Source: Tessaracoccus rhinocerotis
GTDB taxonomy: Bacteria; Actinomycetota; Actinomycetes; Propionibacteriales; Propionibacteriaceae
Length of the DNA stretch: 64,000 nucleotides
Direction: 5' to 3'
NCBI RefSeq assembly: GCF_007197885.1
Contig: NZ_VKKG01000001.1
Coordinates: 580,334 to 644,333 of the forward strand
This document shows positions 30,666-34,443 of this stretch, piece by piece; the first letter of the stretch is position 1; each line of letters begins with the position of its first letter. A program made the translations under genes and the position numbers. Under the pieces are notes generated by a model. It had not been told where the DNA came from and did not search any database. It was given only the letters and a program-made list of their open reading frames with translations.

Positions 30666-30962
30666 TTACTTGGAGACTACGGCGAGGATGTCACGGGCGT
30701 TGAGGAGCAGGAGCTCCTTGCCGTCGTACTTGACCTCGGTGCCGCCGTACTTGGAGAAGATGACGACGTCACCCTCGGCGACGTCCAGCGGGACGCGCTG
30801 TCCGTTGTCGTCGATGCGGCCGGGCCCGGTGGCCACGACGCGGCCCTCCTGCGGCTTCTCCTTGGCGGTGTCCGGAATGACCAGACCCGAAGCAGTGGTC
30901 TGGACAGCCTCCAGCGGCTCGACGAGGACGCGGTCCTCGAGCGGCTTGATCGTGCTTGCCAC
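30666..30962 (-). CDS. groES: co-chaperonin GroES
   Basis: A 98-residue lid of the GroEL chamber. It has the conserved [51 protein letters not shown] and a C-terminal DILAVV. First gene of the operon; about 112 nt of leader separate it from the promoter, and two CIRCE operators lie at the promoter. Confidence 0.97.
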
Positions 30963-31081: not shown

Positions 31082-31108
31082 GCTATACCCCAGTTAGCAC
31101 TCAGGCAA
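31082..31108 (-). promoter_or_regulatory. groES-groEL promoter
   Basis: On the minus strand: -35-like TTGCCT (31103-31108), 15-nt spacer, -10 TATAGC (31082-31087). The -35 lies inside CIRCE 1, and CIRCE 2 covers the start, so HrcA would block initiation at both places. Confidence 0.55.
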
Positions 31109-31120
31109 GTGGAGTGCCAA
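31094..31120. promoter_or_regulatory. CIRCE operator 1 of groES-groEL
   Basis: TTAGCACTC-N9-GAGTGCCAA, only one change from the HrcA consensus. Overlaps the -35 of groES. Spacing between the centres of the two CIRCE elements is 46 bp. Confidence 0.88.
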
Positions 31121-31134
31121 CGCGTTCGCGGGGC

Positions 31135-31284
31135 GTGGTTGCGCGCCACCTGGAACAGCCAGGCCAGGGGTGCGTCGGGCACCCGCGTCGCGCCGACGCC
31201 ACGCCGTCGCGAACACCTCGGCGACGACGTCTGCTGGCCTTCGCCGTGCGACGCGTGGGGCACGACTGCGCCGAGGAAGTGTGA
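31135..31284 (-). pseudogene. decayed ECF sigma factor region 2, inverted relative to its region 4
   Basis: Not an intact gene. Read on the minus strand, three pieces of an ECF sigma region 2 occur in order: HFLGAVVPHA (31284-31252), RRRPADVVAEVFATAWRRRD in a different frame (about 31246-31187), and VPDAPLAWLFQVARNH back in the first frame (31182-31135). Two compensating single-base shifts are needed. No start codon or region 4 follows on this strand; the sequence runs into the groES promoter. The match to the pieces missing from the plus-strand fragment at 31426-31796 is close in content and size. Confidence 0.65.
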
Positions 31285-31389
31285 GCAACGAACCGCTCCT
31301 CGCCGGGCCCCCAATCGCGACAGCAACAGGCGGGGGGCACCGGGTGCCCTCCCCGACGAGAGATTCGGCGGGTCGGGTAGAGGTGTGAC

Positions 31390-31405
31390 GGCTGGGGCCC
31401 CAGCC
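31390..31405. repeat. 16-bp perfect palindrome
   Basis: GGCTGGGGCCCCAGCC, in the unassigned stretch 31285-31425 between the two sigma fragments. The rest of this stretch holds no gene I recognise. Confidence 0.5.
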
Positions 31406-31425
31406 GGGAACAATCCAAGAACCGG

Positions 31426-31796
31426 GACCACCGCTGGCTGGAGGCGCTCTTCGACGCGCACCACCGTACTGCACGAGTACCGGTCGAAGGGCCGCCGCTC
31501 CCGGTTGCAGGACCCTGTTGGCCCTCCACCGGCCGGACACTGCCGACGACCACAGCCGCGTCGAGGTGGACTCGGTGCTGGACCACCTCTCTCCCGACGA
31601 CGCCGAGATCCTGCGGCTCACCATCTGGGAGGAACTCACCCCCTCCGAGATCGCCGAGGTGCTCGACATCAGCCCCGGTGCCGCCCGCAACCGCCTGATG
31701 CGCGCCCGCGCCAAGGCCCAACGAATCCACGAGTTGTCCTCGTCCGACGACGAACCCGAACCTGCCTCCGGCTGGCAGCCGGAGCCACTGATTTAA
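31426..31796 (+). pseudogene. ECF sigma factor fragment: N-terminal tip plus region 4, region 2 missing
   Basis: 31426-31467 reads DHRWLEALFDAHHR, the usual opening of an ECF sigma. After about 5 nt the frame changes and the sequence resumes as RRAAAPGCRTLLALHRPDTADD and an intact region 4 (LSPDDAEILRLTIWEELTPSEIAEVL...GAARNRLMRARAKAQ). About 45-60 residues, exactly region 2, are absent. A TTG at 31518 could still express a 92-residue region-4-only protein, whose stop is 9 bp before the next gene. Intact relatives precede a CU044_5270-type membrane protein, as here. Confidence 0.7.
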
Positions 31797-31805
31797 GGAG
31801 CCACC

Positions 31806-32837
31806 ATGAACCAGACATTCGAGGAACTCATGAGGACAGCTGATCCGGCACGCGACGTCGGCCCCCTCCCCCCGGCGCGCCGCGCCGCTGTCCTGGAGGC
31901 AGCGACCACCGCACGGCCCGTCCCGATCCGGCCCGGCCGCCGGCCGCTGAGGTGGGTGGCTGCCGCAGCCGCGTTGGCGTTCGTGGGTGGCGCAGCCGCG
32001 CTCCAGTTCAGGGGCACCCCCGCAGCCGAGGCACGGGCGGACGAAGTACTCGAGACCGCCGCCATCAACGCGACCGATCCCGCAGTCACACCCGGCCAGT
32101 ACTGGGCGGTCACCACGTCGACGACAGGGGTGATGGGGGTGTGCGAGACCGAGAGCAACGAGGACTGCTACAACGGCTACGTGTACCGCAGCACCCGAAC
32201 CGACTACATCGAGGTGACCGGATCACTGCCGAGTTGGCACGTGGACGGCGAGATCGAGGTGGTCGAGGTCCTCGACGAAAGGGCTGCGAATCCACTCCAC
32301 CCTGACCCCAACGTGTGGACCACGAATCTCGCCCCCAACGACTTCCCGGGCGGCTGGCAGCAGACGTCGCCGGCCTGGCTCGCCGCACTCCCACGAGACC
32401 ATGAGCTCCTCAGGGAGCGGCTCTACGCCGAGAGTGCGCAGGGCAACGACAAGTCCGCATTCACCTATGCCACGGACCTGCTCCGGAGCGGTCTCGTCCC
32501 CGCAGACCTCCGGGCCTCGCTGTTCGAGGTGATCGCCTCCATCCCCGGCACGATCGTCACCGAGGAGGTGGCCACCGTCGACAGCAGGGAGGGCGTTGCG
32601 ATCGGGAGGATCGAGGACGGGGAGGTGAAGTCCGAGATCATCATCGATCCCGAGGTCGGCCAGGTGATCGCCGAGCGGGGCTACAGCGAGGACCCGGTGG
32701 TCAGGCAGTGGGATCTGGGCACCACCTATGACCGCCGACTGGTGGACTCCATCCCGCAGGAGGTCTCCGAGATTGCAGTCCGGCAGGTCTGCACCCCGCC
32801 CACCAGCGACAATGCAACCACCTGTGAGGTCGAGTAG
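31806..32837 (+). CDS. CU044_5270-like membrane protein, partner of the ECF sigma gene
   Basis: A 343-residue protein with a cytoplasmic N-terminus of about 50 residues, one helix (LRWVAAAAALAFVGGAAAL), and a large extracytoplasmic domain. That domain includes a CETESNEDCYNGYVYRS segment and ends in Cys-containing VRQVCTPPTSDNATTCEVE. Proteins of this type follow ECF sigma genes in Actinobacteria and are thought to act in the same signalling unit, possibly as anti-sigma or sensor. ATG at 31806 behind AAGGAG at the sigma fragment's stop. Its sigma partner is broken, so present function is uncertain. Confidence 0.75.
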   Translation: MNQTFEELMRTADPARDVGPLPPARRAAVLEAATTARPVPIRPGRRPLRWVAAAAALAFVGGAAALQFRGTPAAEARADEVLETAAINATDPAVTPGQYWAVTTSTTGVMGVCETESNEDCYNGYVYRSTRTDYIEVTGSLPSWHVDGEIEVVEVLDERAANPLHPDPNVWTTNLAPNDFPGGWQQTSPAWLAALPRDHELLRERLYAESAQGNDKSAFTYATDLLRSGLVPADLRASLFEVIASIPGTIVTEEVATVDSREGVAIGRIEDGEVKSEIIIDPEVGQVIAERGYSEDPVVRQWDLGTTYDRRLVDSIPQEVSEIAVRQVCTPPTSDNATTCEVE

Positions 32838-32840
32838 TCC

Positions 32841-33986
32841 TCAGAGCCGGTTGGCCACCACTGCGACGGCGCCGTTCGGGGTCCGGGTGAGCACCAGCGT
32901 TGCGCTCCCGGGCCCCGACGGCTTGAGCTTGCGGCGCAGGTGCGCGGGGTCGACGTCGATGCCCCGTACCTTGATCTCCAAGGTCCCGATCCGCTGTTCC
33001 CGCACGTGGGCCCTGATGGCCTTGGCGTCGTAGGGCAGGACGGCGGTCACCTCGAAGCAATCGGCCAGCGGGGTGTCCACCGCCTCGTCGCTGGATAGGT
33101 AGGCGAGGTGTGGGTCGACCAGCCAGACGTCCTGCCCGGGCGCCACCTCGGCGACCAGCCCGGCCCGGATGACCGCGTTGTCCGGTTCGAGGAGGTACTT
33201 GCCCACCTCCCGGACCTCCAGTTCGCGCGGGGTCTCGGGGGCCCTGAGTTCCACGGGTTCGGCCGCGCCCCTCGGGAACACGATCGCCGAGTAGCCCGCG
33301 GGCTCCCGGTTCCAGAGCGAGACCTCGACCACCGACCCCTGCTCCGAGACCCAGGTGGCGGCGACGCCGTCGGGGATCAGCTCCTTCGGAAGCCCGGGAC
33401 CGAGCTTCACACAGGTGAAGTGGTCCCCGGCGAGGTAGTGCTCCACCAGGGACCACGGGGGCGTGAAGTCCGCGACGTCCCAGGTACGGCCGCGGGCGGT
33501 CCTGCGGGCCGGGTCGAGGAAGACACCGTGCCCCTGTGGAACCTCCACGTCCTCGGCCAGTGCCCGGGCCACGGGCGCACCGCCGACGAGGGCGAGGTTC
33601 GCCGTCGCGTAGGCCGCGGTGGTGGCGTCGGCCTCTACGCCGTGGGCCGTGAGTCCCTCCTGCTGGAACGCCATGGCGTCGGCCCCCAGTCCGCAGCCGA
33701 GGTCCCAGACCTCGATAACGCCCGCCCCGGCGAACCGTCGCGCCCGCCACGCGGCGACGGCCGGTCGGGTGGCCTGCTGCAGCCCGTCGGAGGTGAGGAA
33801 CATCTCGTCGGCGCGCGGGAACTTGTCCCGGGCGCGACGCCGCAGCGCCACCTGGGTCAGCGCCTCGGCTGCCAACTCGGGAGGGAACTCGCGCCGCAGG
33901 CGTTCGGCGGCGCCGAGCGACGTCGGGTCCCGCTCGGCGGCCGCGGCCGCGAGGGCGGCCCGTCCCCGCTCGGTCAGAATCTCCAC
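32841..33986 (-). CDS. class I SAM-dependent methyltransferase with THUMP-like domain
   Basis: A 381-residue protein. The Rossmann SAM-binding motif is VWDLGCGLGADAMAF and is followed by GVEADATTAAYATANL. The region FLDPARRT matches the DPPR/DPPY-type catalytic motif position. The C-terminal half (VDPHLAYLSSDEAVDTPL..., then IKVRGIDVDPAHLRRKLKPSG) is the THUMP-like domain of this family. Probably an RNA methyltransferase; target unknown. GTG at 33986 lies 6 nt behind TACGGT; upstream in-frame starts would run into the divergent S4 gene. Confidence 0.85.
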   Translation of the reverse strand: MEILTERGRAALAAAAAERDPTSLGAAERLRREFPPELAAEALTQVALRRRARDKFPRADEMFLTSDGLQQATRPAVAAWRARRFAGAGVIEVWDLGCGLGADAMAFQQEGLTAHGVEADATTAAYATANLALVGGAPVARALAEDVEVPQGHGVFLDPARRTARGRTWDVADFTPPWSLVEHYLAGDHFTCVKLGPGLPKELIPDGVAATWVSEQGSVVEVSLWNREPAGYSAIVFPRGAAEPVELRAPETPRELEVREVGKYLLEPDNAVIRAGLVAEVAPGQDVWLVDPHLAYLSSDEAVDTPLADCFEVTAVLPYDAKAIRAHVREQRIGTLEIKVRGIDVDPAHLRRKLKPSGPGSATLVLTRTPNGAVAVVANRL

Positions 33987-33992
33987 GTACCC

Positions 33993-33998
33993 ACCGTA
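33993..33998 (-). promoter_or_regulatory. -10 box of the THUMP-like methyltransferase, leaderless start
   Basis: TACGGT on the minus strand, 6 nt before the GTG at 33986. Confidence 0.5.
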
Positions 33999-34035
33999 GG
34001 CGGTGGTGACGCCGTTCCGGTTCCGGCCCCGCCAG

Positions 34036-34041
34036 TACGCT
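34036..34041 (+). promoter_or_regulatory. -10 box of the S4 protein gene
   Basis: TACGCT, about 21 nt before the GTG at 34063; the leader carries GAGGAGG. Confidence 0.4.
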
Positions 34042-34062
34042 TGGACGGGACGAGGAGGCGAA

Positions 34063-34443
34063 GTGACGAGGCTGGACGTGTGGTTGTGGTCGGTGCGGCT
34101 GTTCAAGACGCGCTCCTTGGCCACCAACGCGGTCAAGGGCGGCCACGTCCGCCTGAACGGCGACCCGGTGAAGCCGGCGCACTCCGTGAAGCCCGGGGAC
34201 AGGGTCAGCGTGAAGGAGCCCGGCTGGGTACGCGAGTTCGAGGTGGTGGAACTGCTCAAGAAGCGCGTCGGCGCCCCCGTGGCGGTGAAGGCCTACCTCG
34301 ACCACTCCCCCGAGCGCCCCGCCCACCTGTCCAACCCGGTGGCCCGCCGCGACCGGGGCGCCGGCCGCCCCACCAAGCGGGACCGGCGCGCGATCGACAA
34401 GTTGATGGGACTGCACGACCCGTACGCGTCGGACGAGGACTGA
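34063..34443 (+). CDS. S4-domain RNA-binding protein, Hsp15-like
   Basis: A 126-residue protein. The S4 domain is RLDVWLWSVRLFKTRSLATNAVKGGHVRLNG, followed by a basic C-terminal part (RRDRGAGRPTKRDRR). Hsp15 in E. coli binds stalled 50S-nascent chain complexes; the role in Actinobacteria is less clear. GTG at 34063 has GAGGAGG 5-8 nt upstream. Confidence 0.88.
   Translation: MTRLDVWLWSVRLFKTRSLATNAVKGGHVRLNGDPVKPAHSVKPGDRVSVKEPGWVREFEVVELLKKRVGAPVAVKAYLDHSPERPAHLSNPVARRDRGAGRPTKRDRRAIDKLMGLHDPYASDED

Follow-up and report, generated by a model that had tools for sequence, protein, structure and literature searches.

ECF sigma factor genes paired with a gene of the CU044_5270 family are the systems closest to the locus described here, and share with it the sigma–partner order, region 4 and a GGGAA motif 14 nt before the sigma start. 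In the ten relatives with an intact sigma gene the sigma factor is one open frame, whereas in the window (the whole 64,000-nt stretch analysed, G000:C1:580334-644333 of a 3.55 Mb draft genome in 49 contigs) region 2 is no longer in its place, is divided and in part inverted, and the gene lacks a start codon. Judged from the family alone, an intact pair would consist of an ECF sigma factor held by the membrane protein of the adjacent gene. Our literature searches for CU044_5270, by name alone or paired with ECF sigma, found no report. The two-subunit sigma factor SigO-RsoA resembles the window in that region 4 lies on a separate open frame, but it has a separate region 2 protein (PMC8103513), whereas the region 2 code of the window lies in pieces on both strands. 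Short coding segments are also turned over in the template-switch spacer inversions of yeast, of which ten cases have inverted spacers of 2–5 bp (PMC8604942); in the window, by contrast, pieces of 45 and 97 bp were moved and one of them was turned, and nearby repeats are near chance level. We consider it likely that the window holds a recently inactivated ECF sigma factor gene, reshuffled while the 141 nt of its pieces B and C, described below, were kept.

The locus lies between the groESL operon and a gene for a THUMP-like domain protein. The minus-strand groES (Cpn10, 30666-30962, Pfam Cpn10 E 4.9e-35) is followed on the same strand by groEL (Cpn60, 30653-29064, Pfam Cpn60_TCP1 E 1.9e-71). 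In the groESL control region stands an intact inverted repeat at 31094-31120, which we take to be CIRCE. Its motif, TTAGCACTC-N9-GAGTG, occurs once in the window and in none of 100 shuffles, and an element of this kind is also readable before groES in G026, G007, G025 and G032. The closest rearrangement breakpoint is about 14 bp beyond the repeat. Downstream of the broken gene, an intact CU044_5270-family partner is encoded on the plus strand at 31806-32837 (NCBIfam NF038083, 103.1 bits against a cut-off of 100), which bears out the earlier note in its statement that region 4 is coupled to such a partner. The partner has a single hydrophobic stretch at about residues 50-67 (by eye) and a weak match to an anti-sigma profile (E 4.1e-5, 23.7 bits; model cut-off 100), and it is probably a membrane anti-sigma protein. 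No convincing relative of solved structure was found for it (best E 0.38), an initial scan of the genome contigs with the partner found no relative, and a plasmid search for a closer partner returned 32 records, with identities of 34% or less in the best 10 of the 32. The THUMP-like gene on the minus strand at 32841-34259 was identified by Pfam (PF18096, E 9.3e-23), with tblastn and synteny as further evidence; in 8 of 30 loci of the genus it is found no more than 1.5 kb from groES.

The sigma gene was read with a profile of 180 positions made from ten intact homologous sigma factors of the genus and family. Intact sigma loci were gathered via the partner or region 4 (for example L002, L099 and L100). 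Left out of the profile were L018 (a near copy of L004), L019 (the same gene as L075), the more distant L101, L008, L010, L011 and L020, and L021, which has no sigma match. The piece nearest to groES is piece C, a part of region 2 inverted onto the minus strand at 31135-31231, which corresponds to profile positions 38-69. One extra base in a GGG run puts it in two frames (positions 38-53 and 54-69), so that the minus strand reads ADVVAEVFATAWRRRD and then VPDAPLAWLFQVARNH; the raw alignments of the halves cover positions 30-53 (22.7 bits) and 52-69 (12.8 bits). Piece B, also of region 2, follows at 31231-31275 on the plus strand and is not inverted (positions 23-37, 14.2 bits; tblastn, plus strand, E 0.016). 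Its peptide, LLAFAVRRVGHDCAEEV at 31231-31281, corresponds to positions 23-39, the similarity extending to 39. Since B and C lie on opposite strands, region 2 was not inverted as one block. The earlier note had region 2 inverted and displaced upstream as a whole; the displacement holds, as does the inversion of piece C, and piece B, which the note overlooked, is the part that does not conform. The peptide HFLGAVVPHA, which had been taken for a sigma piece, is covered by no profile match and is the antisense of plus-strand piece B. The minus-strand sigma piece has one frame break rather than two frameshifts.

Segment X, at 31276-31405 on the plus strand, has no second copy in the genome and is presumed to be the former upstream (promoter) region of the sigma gene, an origin read directly only at its junction with the GGGAAC element. 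A perfect 18-bp palindrome, CGGCTGGGGCCCCAGCCG, forms the end of the segment at 31389-31406 and runs into that element. Piece A, with the N-terminal residues (31406-31470, plus strand, positions 4-22, 12.5 bits), carries the retained GGGAAC at its head (31406-31411). Its peptide, DHRWLEALFDAHHR, stands on the plus strand at 31426-31467, just where it had been reported. The linker part of piece D (31466-31517, plus strand, positions 70-86) scores 8.0 bits, which is weak and by itself unremarkable, and we name it a linker from its place between piece A and region 4. Its peptide, VLHEYRSKGRRSRLQD, is in a frame that differs from those of piece A and region 4. The sequence after piece A had been read as RRAAAPGCRT; it is instead the sigma factor's own linker in another frame, after which a further frame break leads to region 4. 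The remainder of piece D is region 4, an intact open frame at 31518-31796 on the plus strand (Sigma70_r4_2 E 3.8e-14; 93.6 bits, positions 95-165). As the earlier note had recognized, region 4 is intact and the residues of region 2 are absent between piece A and piece D; we put their number at about 47. Compared with a functional ECF sigma factor, region 4 is present, and no region 2 stands in one open frame with it.

In a profile scan of 31121-31425, three matches were obtained, namely the first half of C (22.7 bits), B (14.2 bits) and the second half of C (12.8 bits), while 1000 dinucleotide shuffles reached at most 8.6 bits and 202 further 305-nt tiles from the window at most 5.4 bits. Piece A (12.5 bits) and the linker (8.0 bits) were scored without a shuffle test of their own. 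With the sigma factors of two intact relatives as queries, tblastn placed B, C (both halves) and D on the strands given by the profile; the halves of C had E values of 0.001 and 0.002, the second half being found via one of the two queries only. The pieces tile the profile, with A at 4-22, B at 23-37 (39), C at 38-53 and 54-69, and D from 70. The raw alignments overran the joints by a few residues into foreign sequence and were trimmed by eye. At the three internal cuts the pieces agree to one residue, or to two at B/C. In all ten intact relatives, profile positions 23-69 comprise exactly 47 residues without a gap, or 141 nt. The stretch 31135-31275 of the window, made of C and B, is also 141 nt long, and contains one extra base in the GGG run and one base at the C/B joint that either piece may claim. 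At the A/D joint up to 5 bases are common to both sides (by eye). From the agreement of 141 nt in the window with 141 nt in the relatives it follows that the rearrangement was balanced and that material was kept within a few bases. The possibility, raised earlier, of other copies of the pieces in the genome came to nothing: besides the locus itself there are 36 weak matches up to E 1 and no second copy, the best of them covering 52 bases at 77% identity (E 0.0011) in the region 4 part.

The broken sigma gene is very probably dead, judging from its sequence. No ATG, GTG or TTG occurs in the frame of piece A between the upstream stop and the end of the frame. In all of 11 relatives (L002, L003, L004, L018, L007, L071, L075, L076, L099, L100 and L102; starts assigned by eye, L018 being a near copy of L004) a GGGAA motif precedes the sigma start codon by 14 nt, and in eight of them it reads GGGAAC; in the window, the expected start position after the retained GGGAAC at 31406-31411 is occupied by AAC. 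In sequence the GGGAA motif is like a -35 element of the ECF type, whereas its distance from the sigma start is that of a ribosome site; the gene may have been autoregulated. Piece A, the linker and region 4 are in three different frames. Two frame breaks, one inside C and one between linker and region 4, come in addition to those produced by the new joints. The loss of the start codon together with these two extra breaks argues for a pseudogene and not a switch, and in this the suggestion of the earlier note that an ECF gene was dismantled is supported. No working sigma factor would be made, and the intact partner would be left without its client.

The age of the break can be judged from the intact relatives. 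Identity to L099 and to L100 is 66% for the region 2 pieces (41/62 each) and 64% for region 4 (36/56 each); with the other eight, the values are 44 to 61% for the region 2 pieces and 45 to 66% for region 4. Among the 45 pairs of intact relatives, region 2 averages 6.5 points (sd 6.6) below region 4, and between the window and the ten relatives the mean difference is about 4 points (calculated by hand). As these values give no indication of a stronger decay of region 2 than of region 4, the break looks recent.

The genus was surveyed at groES, which is present in 36 of 39 genomes; 30 loci were obtained, including that of the window (three of the 30 were shorter), and the other six remained unread. 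Traces of the pair within 1.5 kb upstream of groES occur in 2 of the 30 loci, the window and G025. In G025 roughly the last 68 residues of the partner remain (36.0 bits, the next best partner match in another genome scoring 5.8). This stub (L040; L064 8360-8557) is 47% identical to the window partner and adjoins the groES control repeat, with no sigma gene beside it. Comparison with related genomes, as the earlier note proposed, supplied ten intact sigma factors, and at groES only the partner stub of G025 among the other loci of the genus. A groES-groEL tree of the 30 loci joins the window genome with G026 (support 0.98) and then with G007 (0.90), while G025 groups with G032 (1.00), the union of the two groups having a support of only 0.64. 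No trace of the pair was found at groES in G026 or G007. One old pair at this place, lost several times, is the simplest reading, the alternative being two separate arrivals. The pair may be leaving this locus, as the related G025 would illustrate. Between groES and the THUMP-like gene, L064, L065 and L066 (G025, G026 and G007) carry about 6.5-7 kb of genes that by eye resemble ABC peptide transporter genes, and in G030 and G005 groES adjoins the THUMP-like gene. Elsewhere in the genus, all eight loci that were read, from seven genomes (G020, G030 twice, G011, G016, G008, G028 and G012), have the sigma factor as an open frame. Partner matches with an internal stop were seen at G008:C1:1431004-1431792 (TGA), where the sigma frame is open, and at G215:C1:1013823-1014788 (TAG).

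Several other explanations of the locus were weighed against a broken gene. ECF genes are numerous and often decay, and on such general grounds the upstream pieces might be remnants of a second, divergent ECF gene, the main gene having merely lost its region 2. This reading, which the earlier note offered as an alternative, is very improbable and we reject it, as B and C are the complement of the gap between A and D to 1-2 residues (141 of 141 nt) and L099 and L100 are as close to the region 2 pieces as to region 4 (about 65% identity). C and B also lie on opposite strands, and neither another N-terminus nor another region 4 matches the profile in 31121-31850. A living protein of region 4 only, acting with or on the partner, for instance as a decoy, is somewhat easier to imagine and still quite improbable. 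The region 4 frame is open for 92 codons, beginning at a TTG 5 nt downstream of AGGA, a possible ribosome site, so that a residual product is conceivable. The frame stops 9 nt before the partner start, and SigO-RsoA (PMC8103513) is a precedent for a two-subunit sigma factor. The halves of SigO-RsoA are both proteins, however, and the region 2 counterpart here is scrambled; moreover, region 4 is no more similar to the relatives than are the dead region 2 pieces, so that it was not specially kept. The open frame for the 92-residue protein proposed in the earlier note is there; a conservation of region 4 above that of the scrambled pieces was not seen. A programmed, reversible DNA switch of the inverton or shufflon type would agree with pieces flipped with little loss and with the five tyrosine recombinase matches encoded in the genome. 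The nearest of these on the contig is about 0.48 Mb away, however, and the other four are on other contigs; no resolvase/invertase-family serine recombinase was found in the genome by a search that finds one in 10 of 14 controls, and the junctions share none of the 13 direct-repeat families and none of the 25 inverted pairs listed out of 48. With the start lost and the frames broken, flipping alone gives no open gene. We reject the switch, which is hardly credible in view of the lost start codon, the frame breaks and the lack of a nearby recombinase. It is also improbable, though less so, that the strain has an intact sigma gene and that the order arose as an artefact of assembly or sequencing. 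In favour of this, the genome is a draft of 49 contigs, the partner is intact and the scrambled pieces show no extra decay; such an error is the main caveat to our reading. On the other hand, the three new junctions fall within about 145 bp, which ordinary reads should span, a wrong order explains neither the lost start codon nor the two further frame breaks, and decay of the pair is seen at the corresponding place in the related G025.

The path from an intact gene to the broken one can be constrained by the order of the pieces. If G denotes the groES side and XA piece A together with its upstream stretch, the locus went from G XA B C D to G -C B XA D; as assembled, it reads groES, inverted C, B, upstream region with A, linker with region 4, and partner. 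The coding sequence was cut after profile residues 22, 37/38 and 69, and there was one more cut upstream. The shortest inversion path takes three steps, for which six paths exist; the two nested inversions suggested in the earlier note are insufficient, since piece B is not inverted and the inversion distance then comes to 3. Traced by hand, the adjacencies, four old and four new, close into a single alternating cycle, so one four-break event would also suffice. The rearrangement needs at least three inversions, or one four-break event. Less surely, the shuffle would have been a cutting and rejoining of DNA, either as one four-break event sealed by end joining or as three small inversions that reused breakpoints. 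The genome encodes Ku and three LigD-type polymerase domains, one of them in an 819-residue open frame, so that end joining is probably available, which does not imply that it acted here. Tentatively, and without thinking it the probable course, we propose a single concerted four-break event within 340 bp, in which the 5' half of the gene would have been severed at four places and its three fragments rejoined by Ku/LigD, changed in order and orientation, by way of microhomology of a few bases and losing next to nothing. For end joining, free fragments as short as 45 and 97 bp would be odd substrates, and such an event is out of the ordinary, as are three inversions with reuse of breakpoints.

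Replication template switching, in which a polymerase copied C backwards, then B, then X and A and finally skipped to D, is a real but rather doubtful alternative to cutting and rejoining. According to PMC8604942, template switching between short inverted repeats can turn over the spacer that separates them. Imperfect repeats of 80% are present in the window around B (31216-31230 and 31262-31276) and near the ends of C (31116-31130 and 31208-31222). Repeats of this quality are near chance level here, however, and a near-repeat within the gene accounts for the pair flanking B as soon as B and C have opposite orientations. The 771-bp region contains 14 inverted 15-nt pairs with at least 12/15 matches, whereas 60 shuffles average 9.4 (sd 3.6); as 9 of the 60 shuffles reach 14, inverted repeats are near chance level, and on this ground the pairs at B and close to the ends of C were retained as a cause of the inversions only under template switching. 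Three 15-nt pairs with at least 14/15 matches exceed all 60 shuffles; one is the palindrome 31389-31406. Away from the joints lie the 14/15 pairs 31330-31344/31674-31688, between X and region 4, and 31210-31224/31651-31665, between C and region 4, the latter joining two AEV-coding stretches. Of pairs with at least 17/21 matches the region has 2, whereas 60 shuffles average 0.5, with 6 of them also reaching 2. An inverted copy of one CIRCE half at 31517-31537 stands at the beginning of the region 4 frame, and the two copies bracket the scrambled stretch, possibly by chance. The repeat of the CIRCE half 31101-31121 at 31517-31537 (17/21) was considered as an inversion site and rejected, as by reasoning flipping there would not restore the order of the pieces, and pairs of this quality occur in shuffles as well. 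Independent jumps would also predict duplications or losses, yet each piece is present once and neighbouring ends coincide. Cutting and rejoining fits better than copying with independent jumps, as pieces once adjacent have matching ends, give or take a few bases.

The rearrangement resembles what we take to be a chromothripsis-type process of cutting and rejoining, in that four breakpoints form one closed cycle and almost nothing is lost. It differs in its scale of 340 bp within a single bacterial gene, and the likeness does not imply that it occurred as one event. A search of the literature by title for bacterial chromothripsis, template-switch short inversions, invertons and bacterial microinversions found no like case among the titles listed. 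As a gene, the locus is a pseudogene of an ordinary kind, and the manner of its breakage is more interesting than its function. The unusual feature is a balanced reshuffle that left every position of region 2 legible, on two strands and with coinciding ends. Annotation would see a region 4 fragment and an intergenic gap and would be expected to miss the gene, so the number of such events may be underestimated. Should several loci of this kind come to light, comparing how often they occur in genomes that have Ku/LigD and in genomes that lack it would put the origin of short complex bacterial rearrangements to the test. A concerted four-break event, if true, would be a miniature bacterial analogue of chromothripsis.
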